NCBI RefSeq assembly: GCF_000420545.1
Contig: NZ_ATVD01000001.1
Coordinates: 868,001 to 932,000, forward strand
Direction of reading: 5' to 3'
Length of the DNA stretch: 64,000 bases
Origin: Arenimonas oryziterrae DSM 21050 = YC6267
Lineage (GTDB): Bacteria; Pseudomonadota; Gammaproteobacteria; Xanthomonadales; Xanthomonadaceae
Below the pieces are notes generated by a model, which did no database searches, was not told the origin of the DNA, and saw only the letters and a program-made list of their open reading frames with translations. A program made the position numbers and the translations under genes. How positions within the stretch are numbered: position 1 is the first letter of the stretch; every line of letters starts with the position of its first letter. This document shows, one piece after another, positions 20,135 to 26,296 of this stretch.

Positions 20135-20553
20135 CAGTCCGCCGCCGGCACGTAACCCGAACGACGCAAGGTCTCCAGCGGCGCAAACAATGGCGCGGGG
20201 AAGTCTGTCCAACGGAACCAGTCCCAGCGCAGACATTTTTCGGGCTCGCTAAGGACCGGCTCGCCATCGGCGCTGTGCGCCACGACGAACAAGGTCACGT
20301 AATGCTTGCCTTCGGCCGCGAACAGATCGTTGGCATACGGCGCCGCGCGAAGCGTGCCCAGCACCAGACCCGTCTCTTCCCGCACCTCGCGACGCGCACA
20401 GTCCTCGACCGACTCGCCGAATTCCAAATGTCCGCCCGGCAAGGCCCAGGTCCCTGCCCCATGCGAACCAATGCGCTCGCCGAGCAACACCTTGCCGTCG
20501 CGCATCACGATGACGCCGACGCCGACGCGCGGAGAATCGCCGCCGACACTCAC
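20134..20553 (-). CDS. NUDIX hydrolase
   Basis: A 139-residue protein with a full Nudix box, GHLEFGESVEDCARREVREETGL (GX5EX7REUXEEXGU pattern). It starts with GTG at 20553, overlapping the TGA stop of the diguanylate cyclase gene by GTGA, so it is translationally coupled to it. The family hydrolyses nucleoside diphosphates linked to another group; sequence around the box (LLGERIGSHGAGTWALPGG) resembles MutT/NTP-pyrophosphatase-like members, but the substrate cannot be named. Confidence 0.92.
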   Translation of the reverse strand: MSVGGDSPRVGVGVIVMRDGKVLLGERIGSHGAGTWALPGGHLEFGESVEDCARREVREETGLVLGTLRAAPYANDLFAAEGKHYVTLFVVAHSADGEPVLSEPEKCLRWDWFRWTDFPAPLFAPLETLRRSGYVPAAD

Positions 20554-22163
20554 CCCGACGACACCACACCATTGCGCCCGCCTTCCTTGGCCCGGTACAG
20601 GGCCTGGTCGGCGCTCTGCATGAGGTCTTCGAAATCGGCGGTCTGCGGCGGTGTGCGCGTGGAAATGCCCATCGACACCGTGACGCGGCTACCGTCGGGA
20701 TTGCCCGCGTGCGCGATGCCGAGCGATTCGACCCGGCGGCGCAGGGACTCGGCGACTTCCTGCGCGGCAGCCGTATCGGTGCGCGGCAGGATCACCGCGA
20801 ATTCTTCGCCGCCGTAGCGCGCGACGAGCGCGCCCTCGCGGCGCACGCCGGCCGCGATCGCGGTCGCGACCTGCTGCAGGCAACGATCGCCCGCGCCATG
20901 GCCGTAGAGATCGTTGTAGGGTTTGAAATGGTCGATGTCGATCATGATCAGCGACACCGGCTCGCCATGCCGCGTCGCCAGATGCCATTCGCGTTCCAGC
21001 GCTTCGTCGAAGCTGCGACGGTTGGCGAGCAGGGTCAGGCCATCGGTCGCCGACAATTCGCGCAGACGGTCCTCGAGCTGCTTTTGCACCGTCACGTCGC
21101 GGAACACCATCACGTAGTGCTGCACGCGGCCATCGCCGTCGTGCACGCGGTCGACGCTGGCCTCGAGCGGAAAACGATCGCCGTTCGCGCGACGCGCCAG
21201 CAAGGTGCCGTCCCAGTGCGTACCGGCCTGCAGGCGCGTCCTTACCTGCTGCAGCGCGTCGGCATCGTCATCGAACAGCGGCGCAACCTTGCCGATCGCC
21301 TCGTCGGCAGGATGGCCGGTGATGCGCACGAATCCGGGATTGGCGCTGACCACGCGCAACTCCGGATCCAGCACCAGGATGCCCTCGCCGGTATGACGCA
21401 CGACGACATCGGCCAGACGCAGGCCTTCCTGCGCGCGCTCGAGTTCGGCGAGCTTTTCCTGCAGCTGGTCGTTGACCACCGCCAGGCGTTCGCCGGCGCG
21501 TTTTTGCAGATGCAGGCCCAGCGTGAACAACACGATCAGGGCCAGGATCAAGCCGCAGATCGCCCAGGCGAAGGCTTGATAGCGCGCCTGTGTCGCCAGC
21601 CAGGTGTCGGCCCGGATATCCATGCCAAGAATCGCGACCATCGTGCCGTTCGCGTTGCGCACCGGCGCGATCGAGGTGACCCAATAGCCCCACTTGTCGC
21701 GATACGGCGGCTGAATCTCCGGAATGCCGGTGCTGAATACGCGCCACAGTTCCAGCGACGGGCCGTCGTAGATGTCGCCGGGCGCGGAATAGTCCGACGA
21801 CTCCGCGGCTTCGGCATCGGCGAGGAATACCATCTTGCGCTGGCCGTCGGCGGCCGGCCGCATCAGGTAGACGAAACGGAAGTCGGGATTGACGTCGCGC
21901 ACGCGGCGCAGCTCGTCGCGGATCGCATCGAAGTCATGCGTGCCGATGTCGGCGGTGCTGCCCTTGAGCATGCCGATGCGACCGGACTCGAGTGTGGCCG
22001 CCGCCGTGCGCGCGAGCGACTGCACGCGCTCGCGTTCGAGACGATCGCCGGTGCTGGCGACGAAGCCGACGAAATACCAGGAGCCCAGCGCCGCCAGAAC
22101 GAACATCGCCAGTCCCAGCCAGAGATGGGAAGCATCGGAACGGGGCGACGCGGGCACGGTCAT
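20550..22163 (-). CDS. Membrane-bound PAS-GGDEF diguanylate cyclase
   Basis: A 537-residue protein. A transmembrane helix (about 14-36) starts a periplasmic sensor region to about 205, Cache-like in pattern (GMDIRADTW at its end). A second helix (about 207-228) and coiled coil follow, then a PAS domain (about 255-370) and a GGDEF domain (about 375-537) with the active motif RYGGEEF (about 451). The residues where the inhibitory I-site RxxD should be read R-E-G-A, so product feedback inhibition is probably absent. It should make cyclic di-GMP in response to an extracytoplasmic signal. Its stop overlaps the NUDIX start. Confidence 0.92.
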   Translation of the reverse strand: MTVPASPRSDASHLWLGLAMFVLAALGSWYFVGFVASTGDRLERERVQSLARTAAATLESGRIGMLKGSTADIGTHDFDAIRDELRRVRDVNPDFRFVYLMRPAADGQRKMVFLADAEAAESSDYSAPGDIYDGPSLELWRVFSTGIPEIQPPYRDKWGYWVTSIAPVRNANGTMVAILGMDIRADTWLATQARYQAFAWAICGLILALIVLFTLGLHLQKRAGERLAVVNDQLQEKLAELERAQEGLRLADVVVRHTGEGILVLDPELRVVSANPGFVRITGHPADEAIGKVAPLFDDDADALQQVRTRLQAGTHWDGTLLARRANGDRFPLEASVDRVHDGDGRVQHYVMVFRDVTVQKQLEDRLRELSATDGLTLLANRRSFDEALEREWHLATRHGEPVSLIMIDIDHFKPYNDLYGHGAGDRCLQQVATAIAAGVRREGALVARYGGEEFAVILPRTDTAAAQEVAESLRRRVESLGIAHAGNPDGSRVTVSMGISTRTPPQTADFEDLMQSADQALYRAKEGGRNGVVSSG

Positions 22164-22370: not shown

Positions 22371-23453
22371 GTGCCCGATATTTTCGTCAGTTATGCCAGT
22401 GCCGACCGCGATGTCGCGTTCCGCATCGTCGGTTTCCTCGAAGGCCAGGGCATCAGCTGCTGGGTCGCACCGCGCGATGTCTCGCCGGGCGTCGAATACG
22501 GACAGGCGATCATCGACGCGATCGAGCAGGCCCGCGCGCTCGTGCTCGTGCTCTCGGACCAGTCCAACGACTCGCAGTTCGTGCGCAAGGAAGTCGAACG
22601 CGCGGTCAGCAAGACCAAGCCGGTGTTGCCGGTGCGCATCCGCGAAGTGAATCCGTCGGGTGCGTTGGAGTTCTACATCTCCTCTGCGCAATGGGTCGAC
22701 GCGTGGAAGTCGCCGATGGAGCAGCACCTCATGCCCTTGGTCGCGGCGATCAAGGCGATGTCCGTGCCGGGCGCAGCACCGGTGCGGTCGACGACGCCGA
22801 TGCCGGCACCGACGCCGGCCGTCGCACGCACGCATTCGCCAGTGTTGCTGGGCCTGCTGGGCCTGGCGGTCGTCGCCCTGGCGATCGCCGGCACCTGGAT
22901 CGTCAGTCAGCGCAATGCCGTGCCCGCACCCGTCGCGACGGCCACGACGGCGCCTGCGGTCGCGGCACCCAGCGACGTCGCCACGACGACGCCCGTGCTT
23001 GCACCGACCCCGACGACTACCGCACCTGCCACGACCACACCCGCACCGGCACCTGCAGTTGCGGCACCACCGCCGGTCGCTTCCGCCCCGGCTCCCGCAC
23101 CGGTTGCCGCCGCGGCGCCCGTTGCCCGCGCGCCCAAGCGCAGCGACATCGCCTTCCTCGTGGGCCACTGGTGCCAGCCCTACAACGGCCTGACGATCCG
23201 CTACGAAATCCTGCGCACCGGTCCCGACACCATCCTTACGCGCGTGAACCATCCGCAGACCTCGAACTGGGACGTTCCCTCGCGCGCCATCGCCGCCGGC
23301 GACGGTTTTGACTTCCTGCCCGAAGACAAACAAGCCGATCAGACCGACAGCTACCACCTGCAGATCGTCGACGACAACCTGATGAAACTCACGCGCTCGC
23401 GCGGCGAAGTCGAAGACGGTTCGATCATCCGTGTCCGCTGCGCGGCCGAATAA
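22371..23453 (+). CDS. TIR domain protein with membrane helix and unknown C-terminal domain
   Basis: A 360-residue protein; GTG start preceded by GAGG. Residues 1-130 form a TIR domain (DIFVSYASADRDVAF, CWVAPRDVSPG, VLVLSDQSNDSQFVRKEVERA). One transmembrane helix follows at about 158-182 (SPVLLGLLGLAVVALAIAG), then a Pro/Ala/Thr-rich linker to about 245 and a C-terminal domain of about 105 residues (IAFLVGHWCQPYNGLTIRYE...) that I cannot assign. By topology this last domain lies in the periplasm and the TIR in the cytosol. At the position where NAD-cleaving TIRs carry Glu I read Gln45, with Glu42 nearby, so activity is uncertain. Followed after 9 nt by the TPR/SLOG/cyclase gene. Confidence 0.85.
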   Translation: MPDIFVSYASADRDVAFRIVGFLEGQGISCWVAPRDVSPGVEYGQAIIDAIEQARALVLVLSDQSNDSQFVRKEVERAVSKTKPVLPVRIREVNPSGALEFYISSAQWVDAWKSPMEQHLMPLVAAIKAMSVPGAAPVRSTTPMPAPTPAVARTHSPVLLGLLGLAVVALAIAGTWIVSQRNAVPAPVATATTAPAVAAPSDVATTTPVLAPTPTTTAPATTTPAPAPAVAAPPPVASAPAPAPVAAAAPVARAPKRSDIAFLVGHWCQPYNGLTIRYEILRTGPDTILTRVNHPQTSNWDVPSRAIAAGDGFDFLPEDKQADQTDSYHLQIVDDNLMKLTRSRGEVEDGSIIRVRCAAE

Positions 23454-23462
23454 CCCGCGCGC

Positions 23463-25226
23463 ATGAACGGTCCCGAAGACTGGCTCGCGCGCGTCCGCCA
23501 ACTCGAAGCCCGCGGCGAACTGCTGCTCGCCTACGACACCGCCCTGCAAGGGCTGGAAGCGCATCCGGGCCATCTGCGCCTGGGCCACCGCGCCGTGCTC
23601 AATCTCGCCAAGGCCGGAGCCACCGCGCAGGCAGACGCGGAGTTTCGGCGCCTCGGCCTGGCCACTGCGAAGGATGGCGACATCGCCGCGCTCGCCGCGC
23701 GCATCGCCAAGGATCGCGCGCTCACGGCGCCGGCGAACGAACGCCCCGCCCTGCTCGCGCAAGCCGCCGACCGGTATGAAGCGATCTATCGCGACGGCGG
23801 CGACTACTACCCAGGCATCAATGTCGCGACCTTACGATTGCTCGCCGGCGATGTCCGGGCCGCGGAAGTGATGGCGAACGCGGTCCGGCCGCTGTGCCGG
23901 GCGGCGGGCGCCAGCGTCGAAGACAATTACTATCGCGCCGCTTCGCTCGCGGAAGCGGAGCTGGTGCTGGGGCATGTCGATGCGGCCGCGGGCGCCCTCG
24001 AACACGCCGCGCACCAGGGCCACGATCTCGCCGCGCGCGCCGCCACGCGCCGGCAACTCCGCCTGATCTGCCGGCAGCGTGGCATCGACGATGCCGTGCT
24101 GGCGCCGCTCGCGCCGCCGACCGTGATCCACTACACCGGCCATATGATCGCCGCACCCGGTGCGCGCGGCCGCTTCCCCGCGAATGAGGAAGCGGGTGTC
24201 GCCGACGCGATCGGCAAACAACTTGCCGAACGACAGGTCGGCTTTGGTTATGGCGGCCTCGCCTCTGGCGCCGACATCCTGTTCGCCGAAGCCCTGCTTG
24301 CGCGCGGCGCCGAGTTGCATGTGGTACTGCCATTCTCGCGCGACGAGTTCACCGGCATCTCGGTCGCGCCCGCCGGCGCGCCCTGGCTCGCGCGGTTCGA
24401 GCACTGTCTGCAGCACGCGAGCTCGATCACCTTCGCTACCGACGATCGCTTTCTGGGCCACGACTGGATTTTCTCGTACGGCTCCTTCGTCGCGATGGGC
24501 CTGGCAATCCTGCGCGCACGTTTTCTGGACGGTGACGTGCAGCAGATCGCGGTCTGGGACGGCGTGGTCACCGGCGGCGTCGCCGGCACCGGCTTCGACG
24601 TCAGTACCTGGCGCGAAACGGGTCGCACCACGACCGTGATCGCGAGCCCGGGCAATGCGCCCGCCGCGAACACACGCTCGCCCTTGCCCGCGCCCTCCGA
24701 ACGCCAGCTCAAGGCGATGCTGTTCGGCGACGTGAAAGGCTTCAGCAAATTGCAGGAAGCGCAGATCCCCGCCTTCGTCACCCATGTGCTCGGCGCGATC
24801 GGCGGCGTACTCGCGAACTACGGTGCGCATCTGAGTTATCGCAACACCTGGGGCGACGGCCTGTTTCTCGTGCTCGACGACGCCGTCGCCGCCGCGCGCT
24901 GCGCGCTCGACCTGCAAACTGCGATGAAAGCGCTAGACCTGCACGCCTGCGGTCTGCCGGACACGCTCGCCCTGCGCCTGGGCGGCCACTACGGCCCGGT
25001 GTTCGAAGCGACCGATCCGGTGCTCGGCCTGACCAATTATTTCGGCGCGCATGTCAGCCGCACGGCGCGCATCGAACCAGTCACGCCGCCGGGCGAGGTA
25101 TTCGTGACCGAACAATTCGCCGCCCGCCTCGCACTCGCCCCGGACGGCTATGCCTGCGACTATGTCGGCCAGGTCCCCGCCGCGAAGAATTTCGGCACGC
25201 TGCGCATGTACCACCTGCGCGCATAA
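23463..25226 (+). CDS. TPR (TRAFs-binding type) - SLOG-like - class III nucleotide cyclase fusion
   Basis: 587 residues in three parts. Residues 1-205 are TPR-like helices with GGDYYPGINVATLRLLAGD, the signature of the TRAFs-binding/DUF4071 domain. Residues about 210-400 have a Rossmann-like region with GYGGLASGADILFAEALL and GAELHVVLPF, which resembles SLOG/DprA-type nucleotide-binding domains. Residues about 415-587 are a class III cyclase: the metal Asp residues are in FGDVKGFS and NTWGDGLF, and the transition-state Arg is in SRTARIE. The base-selecting Lys/Glu position is Asn and the usual Asn before the Arg is Ser, so the product cannot be predicted. No signal or membrane helix. Coupled to the TIR gene. 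Confidence 0.82.
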   Translation: MNGPEDWLARVRQLEARGELLLAYDTALQGLEAHPGHLRLGHRAVLNLAKAGATAQADAEFRRLGLATAKDGDIAALAARIAKDRALTAPANERPALLAQAADRYEAIYRDGGDYYPGINVATLRLLAGDVRAAEVMANAVRPLCRAAGASVEDNYYRAASLAEAELVLGHVDAAAGALEHAAHQGHDLAARAATRRQLRLICRQRGIDDAVLAPLAPPTVIHYTGHMIAAPGARGRFPANEEAGVADAIGKQLAERQVGFGYGGLASGADILFAEALLARGAELHVVLPFSRDEFTGISVAPAGAPWLARFEHCLQHASSITFATDDRFLGHDWIFSYGSFVAMGLAILRARFLDGDVQQIAVWDGVVTGGVAGTGFDVSTWRETGRTTTVIASPGNAPAANTRSPLPAPSERQLKAMLFGDVKGFSKLQEAQIPAFVTHVLGAIGGVLANYGAHLSYRNTWGDGLFLVLDDAVAAARCALDLQTAMKALDLHACGLPDTLALRLGGHYGPVFEATDPVLGLTNYFGAHVSRTARIEPVTPPGEVFVTEQFAARLALAPDGYACDYVGQVPAAKNFGTLRMYHLRA

Positions 25227-25275: not shown

Positions 25276-26121
25276 TTACGGGGCGACGGTGTCGGACGGA
25301 ATCACTTCGCCGATCCGGTCAAACTTTCGTTTTATCTCCAGAGTGCCGTCGCGATCGCGATCCATTTCTTCGGTGTCTAGCACGCCGTGGACATACAGGC
25401 GCTGCTTGAAGACAGACGAATCGCGTGGGTCCAGATATTGATCGCGCCAAATCACCCCGTCCACATAGTCGCTGCGCTGCTCGAAGAATCCGTCGCCGTC
25501 ATCATCGACGGCATACGAATTCAGGAGATTCTTCTTGTAGATCATCACGCCCTCAAACCGTCCGTCGAAATCATCATCGACCTGGACTTCGGCCGCGCCA
25601 CTCCAAGGATTGAGCGTGATCTGATCCGGCTTGGAATCGCCATTGCGATCGTCGACGATCTTCTTGAGGACCTCGCCTTCATAAGTCTCACGGGAATCGA
25701 CGAGATTGTTGTGGTCGTAGTCGAGTTCATCCACCTGCACCGGCACATGCATGCGCCAGTAGGTCAGGCCGGCGCCAAGGAGCAGACCGACCGCCAGCCC
25801 GATCCAGCCACGCCCTCCCGATACGACGGGCGCCGCCGTGGCAGAGCCCGGCGACGCTTCTGTTACTTCGGCTTCGACGTCAGCTTCGTCCCAGTCGTCG
25901 CCCTCGGCCGAGTTCTGCGCCTCACGCTCAGCCAGGCAGGCACGCGCTGCCGCTTCGTCGTCATCGGCCACCCATACACGCACCATTTCCCCGATCGGCA
26001 GTTCGCCGATCGCACCGGACAGATAATTGCCCTGCACATGCGCGTCGATGCCTTCGGCGGCCAGCCAATCGACTACGAGTTGCGCATCAAGCGGGCTGGC
26101 GGCGCGGTAGACGGTTTTCAT
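25276..26121 (-). CDS. DUF2007 membrane protein with EF-hand-like Asp-rich loops
   Basis: A 281-residue protein. ATG at 26121 (MKTVYRAASPLDAQLVVDWL) is the normal start of a DUF2007 domain, here about residues 1-70. An acidic linker leads to one transmembrane helix (about 112-132). The C-terminal, probably periplasmic, half contains five Asp-rich loops such as DDRNGDSKPD, DDDFDGRFEG, DDDGDGFFE and DRDRDGTLE. They look like EF-hand/dockerin-type calcium loops arranged in a repeated array. Function unknown; DUF2007 is thought to be a signal-transducing or regulatory PII-like module. The longer open frame upstream is not used. Confidence 0.78.
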   Translation of the reverse strand: MKTVYRAASPLDAQLVVDWLAAEGIDAHVQGNYLSGAIGELPIGEMVRVWVADDDEAAARACLAEREAQNSAEGDDWDEADVEAEVTEASPGSATAAPVVSGGRGWIGLAVGLLLGAGLTYWRMHVPVQVDELDYDHNNLVDSRETYEGEVLKKIVDDRNGDSKPDQITLNPWSGAAEVQVDDDFDGRFEGVMIYKKNLLNSYAVDDDGDGFFEQRSDYVDGVIWRDQYLDPRDSSVFKQRLYVHGVLDTEEMDRDRDGTLEIKRKFDRIGEVIPSDTVAP

Positions 26122-26296
26122 GAGGTTCCGGCGGCGATTTACCAAGGCCGATGCTAACCCGTCGGCCAGACGGTTGGCGGTGCGCCAAACCGGTGCCTGC
26201 ATCACGCTCACCCCCCACCAATGGCAGGGGGGCGACGCGCCCGGCGACTTCTAGAATAGGCACCCGCTGCCGCAACACCTGCCAGGCCACGCCCGC

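Follow-up and report, generated by a model that had tools for sequence, protein, structure and literature searches.

The 64,000-nucleotide stretch of the Arenimonas oryziterrae DSM 21050 genome analysed here (contig NZ_ATVD01000001.1, positions 868,001 to 932,000; called the window below) carries two adjoining plus-strand genes. Their products are P0001, a TIR protein with a membrane helix, and P0002, a fusion of a TPR-S domain, a SLOG-like domain and a class III nucleotide cyclase. We propose from their sequences, with slightly less than an even chance of being right, that the two genes make up an alarm circuit, leading from the TIR through a derivative of nicotinamide adenine dinucleotide (NAD) to the TPR-S/SLOG part, the cyclase, a cyclic mononucleotide (cNMP) and its receptor. 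This order would seem to explain the neighbouring genes with the fewest assumptions. P0001 would sit in the inner membrane, held by its helix, and expose its C-terminal domain (CTD) on the outside, and a trigger acting on the CTD, or assembly of the TIR, would lead the TIR to cut NAD+ into an ADP-ribose-type signal, as expected from the family and its retained Glu. The TPR-S/SLOG part of P0002 would then bind this signal, or the assembled TIR, and switch on the fused cyclase, predicted from fold and catalytic residues to produce a 3′,5′-cyclic mononucleotide. The messenger would be read by a cyclic-nucleotide-binding protein, encoded next door in some relatives and elsewhere in the window's genome, and the pair may serve against phages. 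The TIR circuits known to us have NADases, proteases, membrane proteins or death effectors as their outputs. A circuit feeding a cyclase would, if true, join the two principal alarm chemistries of bacteria, NAD-derived and cyclic mononucleotide, in one two-gene unit.

Of 149 relatives, 9 have a P0002-like protein spanning both the TPR-S and SLOG-like domains, as do 3 of 369 class genomes and 18 of 398 phylum genomes, the window's own genome being counted each time. Thirteen loci came from the collection of named genomes, two of them from genomes also counted as G003 and G004. Short, mostly cyclase-only matches occurred in 20 further of the 149 relatives, and cyclase-only matches in five further phylum genomes. 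The set of 28 genomes used for counting, own genome included, holds the matches that cover the TPR-S/SLOG region, leaving out 20 of the 29 matches among the 149 relatives and the five cyclase-only ones of the phylum. In 17 of these 28 genomes (16 of 27 without our own) a TIR_2 match lay within 3 kb of the TPR-S/SLOG gene, and the same number was reached within 5 kb, where 0.11 and 0.16 were expected from TIR number and genome size; these statistics treat close kin as independent, so that the P values are too small. The nearby TIR was the sole TIR_2 match (E ≤1e-4) of the genome in 12 of the 17. An earlier note on this DNA, which proposed the TIR-cyclase relay, had named rare co-occurrence of the two genes as what would refute it. 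Such rarity was not what we found, and chance neighbourhood was rejected (17 of 28 genomes with a TIR within 5 kb, against 0.16 expected).

A wider set of 40 proteins contained 24 with a TIR gene in the flank and 16 without. Contig ends cut several of the 40 loci, so that the lack of a TIR is uncertain at L035, L037, L041, L042 and L057. The TIR neighbours were of several kinds. A TIR-helix-CTD protein was present in five loci (the window, L032, L033, L034 and L036, where it is split by a frame change), whose TPR-S/SLOG parts group together in a single clade (support 100/98). Locus L044 has a TIR-FGE protein, seven other loci scanned with Pfam have TIR-TPR proteins, and the remaining eleven TIR neighbours were detected by a purpose-built TIR profile only. 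On the tree, the label for TIRs other than the TIR-helix type requires 7 changes, and well-supported branches make at least 4 of these unavoidable. Since three TIR architectures fill the same neighbouring place, these comparisons suggest that TIR chemistry, rather than one protein surface, is coupled to the TPR-S/SLOG/cyclase protein; we regard this as our chief new argument. Two further loci, L058 and L060, fell under the threshold for the 40-protein family; on the Tolypothrix plasmid of the latter (L060:5857-9599), a 145-aa stand-alone cyclase piece lies 92 bp before a gene for a 1072-aa TIR protein.

P0001 (22371..23453, plus strand, 360 aa, GTG start) and P0002 (23463..25226, plus strand, 587 aa, ATG start) are separated by 9 nt and flanked by minus-strand open reading frames at 20550-22163 and 25276-26211, a layout that the earlier note had read correctly. 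It had also described the first protein as a TIR domain, a membrane helix and an uncharacterised outer domain, and this description holds, with the outer position as its predicted part. The TIR domain (residues 3-114, 22377..22712) is matched by Pfam TIR_2 at E 2.3e-22 and aligns with the other TIRs; the ThsB_TIR profile also matches above its cut-off (E 2.5e-5, 25 bits vs 21.2). Glu74, within FVRKEVE, aligns with a Glu found in 26 of 26 aligned TIR sequences, and we take it to be the NADase Glu. Hydropathy gives one hydrophobic segment, at about residues 154-180, and the single membrane helix is placed at about residues 158-179 (22842..22907), in agreement with the alignment and with a helix in the structural model. 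It is followed by a linker (residues 180-256, 22908..23135) made up to 91% of Pro, Ala, Thr, Val and Ser, and by the CTD, of about 105 aa (23136..23450), which is beta-rich in the model and has no Pfam match. The AlphaFold model of P0001, built from four sequences, is poor (pLDDT 53.0, pTM 0.34), so its helix and strands are of low confidence. An N-in/C-out orientation, with the CTD beyond the membrane, is predicted because the alignment has an Arg/Lys-rich stretch on the TIR side of the helix in L032 and L033.

The AlphaFold model of P0002, built from 12 sequences (pLDDT 89.8, pTM 0.89), has a helical N-terminal part, a Rossmannoid middle and a cyclase. The helical TPR region (residues 4-216, 23472..24110), in which GGDYYPGINVATL begins at residue 112, belongs to the TPR-S family, PF20308 matching residues 24-124 at E 1.8e-11 (45 bits vs a cut-off of 27.6). 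MAP3K_TRAF_bd (PF13281) matches the same region at E 0.003, below its cut-off. Of the TRAFs-binding-type TPR domain announced in the earlier note, the TPR fold stands and the label gives way to TPR-S. The middle domain (residues 217-398, 24111..24656), defined by model topology, alignments and Foldseek, contains the motifs GHM, GYGGLASGAD...E and ELHVVLPF, and GYGGLASGADILFAEALL begins at residue 262 of P0002. In the model its strands lie at 220-226, 259-264, 284-289, 321-324, 359-365 and 390-394, separated by helices; the glycine-rich loop follows the second strand, as in the Rossmannoid fold of the SLOG superfamily. The absence of a SLOG-like Rossmann fold, which the earlier note had listed as fatal to its proposal, is therefore not what the prediction gives.

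Sequence comparisons of this middle domain were less telling. No SLOG-type Pfam family matched any of the 39 members scanned (L036 is excluded from their alignment), three unrelated Pfam families matched one member each, and a profile of the domain run against PDB sequences gave no credible match, only two implausible ones. Foldseek of the whole model against the PDB is uninformative on this domain, because only cyclases are found among the best 50 of 133 matches (E ≤0.001). Against viral models, a 153-aa DprA-like protein came at rank 7 (E 1.2e-4, TM 0.76 by target), among cyclases, TPR proteins, glycosyltransferases and others. DprA is a SLOG-superfamily protein, and on that ground we assign the match to the middle domain, which it probably covers; the aligned residues are absent from the output. 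The 39-member profile scored 28.5 against LOG proteins, with a probability of 21%, compared with at most 21.5 in 100 column shuffles, 16.7 for a TIR profile and 20.2 for a cyclic-nucleotide-binding profile. These values were obtained after removal of row L113, which lies out of the domain; with L113 included they are 50% and 34.9, and it is in that run that GYGGLASGAD...ELHVVLPF aligns on YGGGNVGLMG...EVIGVIPK of the LOG proteins. A single-sequence phmmer search also placed residues 234-295 on a LOG protein (E 0.013). We conclude that the SLOG identity is backed by predicted fold and motif, and by sequence only moderately, given the low LOG probability.

A rival reading is a relay by protein contact. 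The TPR-S part would be a scaffold holding the TIR, and triggered assembly would activate both the TIR, with NAD+ depletion as the killing step, and the cyclase; no diffusible NAD product would be sensed, and the SLOG-like domain would bind another nucleotide or be structural. TPRs are usually protein-binding scaffolds, the nearby TIRs could have a common docking surface despite their different architectures, and the Glu is kept in the TIRs. Yet each TIR architecture would need to keep the same interface, and the conserved glycine-rich loop of the SLOG-like domain (Gly269 invariant in 39 of 39 members, Asp271 present in at least 90%) points to a ligand site. We consider this contact model unlikely.

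That the C-terminal part of P0002 (residues 411-586, 24693..25220) is a class III cyclase, as the earlier note had it, is borne out by Pfam Guanylate_cyc (PF00211, E 1.6e-6, above cut-off), by Foldseek to solved cyclases (CyaB at E 4.6e-9, also Cya2 and Rv1900c) and by the alignments. The metal-binding residues Asp423 and Asp465 and the catalytic Arg536 are kept in 32 of 32 aligned family cyclase domains; these are 32 of the 40 rows, after exclusion of L036 (frame-shifted), L041 (cut) and L059 and L104-L108 (no intact cyclase). The base read by this cyclase is less easily deduced. Aligned to solved cyclases (the Lys of 3mr7, the Glu of 3et6), the position four residues before the second Asp is Asn in 23 domains, including Asn461 of P0002, Glu in 5, Ala in 3 and Asp in 1. 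Lys at that site, the adenine reader of class III adenylate cyclases, occurs in 0 of 32. All 32 have the Trp that is Trp463 in P0002, two positions ahead of the second metal Asp. With this composition at Asn461/Trp463, neither an adenine, a guanine nor a known pyrimidine pocket can be claimed, and the cyclase profile, which matched 57 solved sequences (E ≤0.001), hit none with a pyrimidine-cyclase name. With its conserved Asn/Trp pocket, the enzyme is a candidate for an unassigned base. Two relatives depart from the usual form: L104:6989-8617 encodes a TPR-S/SLOG protein whose cyclase remnant has lost the metal Asp motifs and is possibly a pseudo-cyclase, and L100:4038-7796 encodes one 1252-aa protein made of vWA, a weak TPR-S (below cut-off), a SLOG-like domain and a cyclase.

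A TIR gene side by side with a class III cyclase gene is also the layout of Pycsar with PycTIR (PMC11224242). It could mean that the order is reversed, with the cyclase as sensor and its cyclic nucleotide triggering the TIR as NADase effector. This we hold to be very unlikely. P0001 has no match to a cyclic-nucleotide-binding domain, and the eight other nearby TIR proteins that were scanned carry TPR (seven) or FGE (one) instead. P0002 has TPR-S and SLOG-like domains added, and found no PADLOC match at E ≤1 although the library includes a PycC model. In the cytidylate cyclase EaPycC the residues used are Phe100, Arg142 and Gln144, and the metal Asps are 102 and 146 (PMC11224242); by their spacing to the second Asp, its base-reading Arg142 and Gln144 have Asn461 and Trp463 of P0002 as counterparts. 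In two relatives, stand-alone cyclic-nucleotide-binding neighbours match the PycTIR model (3.6e-11 and 1.4e-13), a likeness that shows a cyclic-nucleotide-binding domain and no more. Membership of Pycsar was rejected on profile matches, P0001 lacking PF00027 and P0002 a PycC match.

For the proposed order, TIR first and cyclase second, a reader of the cyclic nucleotide is needed, and candidates are found near several relatives. In 9 of the 28 genomes (L093, L094, L095, L096, L099 and L105-L108) a protein with a cyclic-nucleotide-binding domain is encoded within 3.5 kb, against 0.87 expected, with a P value that is again too small because close kin are counted as independent; the count was made with a profile built from the neighbours and the expectation from PF00027 counts, and four of the nine genomes (G537, G622, G762, G795) are also among the PF00027 matches listed. 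The genes differ in kind. Pfam identifies Crp-type regulators beside the gene in L059 and L093, and another 4.5 kb away in L035. Locus L099 has an ABC transporter with such a domain, in L038 a small stand-alone domain gene overlaps the cyclase gene, and in L039 the domain is joined, by eye, to a hydrophobic N-terminal part. In two bins labelled Marinimicrobia (L041:6563-8004 and L043:3298-4776), genes for a patatin and a stand-alone cyclic-nucleotide-binding protein stand in tandem before the cyclase gene, together a candidate cNMP-triggered phospholipase effector. Having receptors next door in relatives makes both messengers directly testable in vitro. We regard as doubtful a fuller version of the circuit, a two-messenger cascade in which the NAD+ derivative made by the TIR would act through TPR-S/SLOG on the fused cyclase, whose Asn/Trp pocket would have a new base specificity and whose product would be read by interchangeable receptors, and in which, in the window's clade, the outer domain of the transmembrane TIR would bring in a periplasmic cue. 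If true, an NAD-derived alarm would be converted and amplified into a cyclic mononucleotide.

Other neighbours are of a predicted nucleotide-making kind. A gene for pNTSase1 (PF20301), a predicted nucleotide synthetase, lies between the TIR and TPR-S/SLOG genes in L059, L096 and L106. In L059 and L106 no cyclase can be recognised in the second protein, and L096 has both pNTSase1 (just above cut-off) and a cyclase; it is possible that the two replace one another, not strictly since L096 has both. Locus L056, which has no TIR gene, encodes a 1700-aa nSTAND1-WD40 protein adjoining the cyclase gene on the same strand (L056:2310-9290).

The CTD of P0001 was found in 3 of the 149 relatives, all Arenimonas (the genus set comprises 27 genomes) and each time adjoining the cyclase gene, and it adjoins that gene also in the named bins L032 and L033. 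G017, another Arenimonas genome, encodes a relative of the cyclase at 46% identity without the CTD. Two residues, Cys268 and Cys357, are invariant in the four CTD sequences, and this pair would fit a periplasmic disulfide. Kinship of the CTD with secreted proteins of L046, L047, L049 and L050 was rejected (profile probability 0.5%). The latter (L046:8882-9529, L047:4022-4672, L050:3444-4298 and L049:10048-11940) are related to one another, have a signal-like N-terminus and adjoin a TIR or cyclase gene.

Mobile carriage of the P0002 family was examined as well. No relative was found in viral contigs, by short-pattern scans that reach close relatives only, and none in phage records; ten plasmid records matched in part, always over less than 80% of the query, and carriage by mobile elements was rejected. 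The lack of relatives in phage records and viral contigs would suit a housekeeping role in envelope- or redox-stress signalling, the outer domain sensing the periplasm and the cyclase feeding a Crp-type regulator. So would the predicted membrane topology with its two invariant Cys, the Crp-type neighbours in L059, L093 and, at 4.5 kb, L035, and adjoining genes that include, read by eye, no recognised defence gene. The distribution is patchy for such a role, however, with the CTD in 3 of 27 genomes of the genus, and the partners seen in relatives (TIR, patatin, pNTSase1, nSTAND1) are of conflict type. We judge housekeeping signalling to be quite unlikely.

Several observations weigh against the alarm circuit itself. 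No TIR is found nearby in 11 of the 28 genomes (G017, G066, G185, G487, G515, G537, G552, G622, G653, G681 and G856), two of which, G653 and G856, are without any TIR_2 match (E ≤1e-4); a P0002-type protein can therefore work without a TIR. No cyclic-nucleotide-binding gene was found in the available flanks of the five loci of the TIR-helix type, and the nearest match in the window's genome is about 77 kb away. The sequence match of the middle domain to SLOG proteins is weak, as the LOG probability given above indicates. Finally, no PADLOC model, PycC included, matched P0002, and reading the adjoining genes by eye, without a profile scan, over about 18-30 kb of the window brought no recognisable defence gene to light.

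Among described systems, the nearest are the predicted TPR-S/TIR systems reportedly introduced by Burroughs and Aravind in 2020, who are also said to be the source of the Pfam names TPR-S and pNTSase1 and to have seen in the TPR a scaffold recognising NAD+-derived signals. The pair appears to be a variant of these systems. P0002 has PF20308, its relatives have TIR, PF20301 and Crp-type neighbours, and the recurrent TIR adjacency that reportedly marks them was observed in 17 of 28 genomes. The pair differs from them by the cyclase fused behind the SLOG-like domain and by a TIR that is membrane-bound and carries a new outer domain. Thoeris (ThsB TIR with ThsA Sir2-SLOG) offers an analogy, in that a TIR gene adjoins a SLOG-type gene and thus provides the TIR partner, whereas the predicted output of P0002 is a nucleotide cyclase instead of Sir2 and the TIR of P0001 is predicted to be membrane-anchored. 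Thoeris membership was rejected, with no Sir2 match in P0002 and no ThsA hit; the type III ThcB4 model matched the TIR alone, at 15.6 bits where its cut-off is 220.

In the predicted ternary conflict systems, cNMP cyclases are the commonest messenger-making domains, with TIR and SLOG-type domains as alternatives (PMC7159879). The pair has domains of both kinds; it lacks the vWA/MoxR/VMAP core, of which vWA is fused only in the relative L100, and it holds TIR and cyclase together rather than as alternatives. The weak, below cut-off MAP3K_TRAF_bd match recalls the animal ASK/MAP3K signalosome, from which the pair differs by having no kinase match and a bacterial cyclase as output. PMC8195603 states that parts of the ASK signalosome are bacterial in origin, citing Burroughs and Aravind 2020 among other works, and cites the same study for NAD+-derived signals made by TIR domains; TIR, SLOG and NAD+ signalling are reviewed in PMC9503650. 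No description of a TIR and TPR-S/SLOG/cyclase pair was found in the open-licence papers searched.

The base composition of the pair gives no sign of recent import, the G+C content at third codon positions being 0.82 in both genes and 0.71-0.87 in nine neighbours. The upstream GGDEF gene is retained in three Arenimonas genomes, in regions from which the pair is absent; the downstream side is non-syntenic, so that insertion at an empty site is not shown. In the A. daejeonensis assembly (L036:6989-9769), both genes of the pair are broken by frame changes, which may reflect an assembly error or decay.

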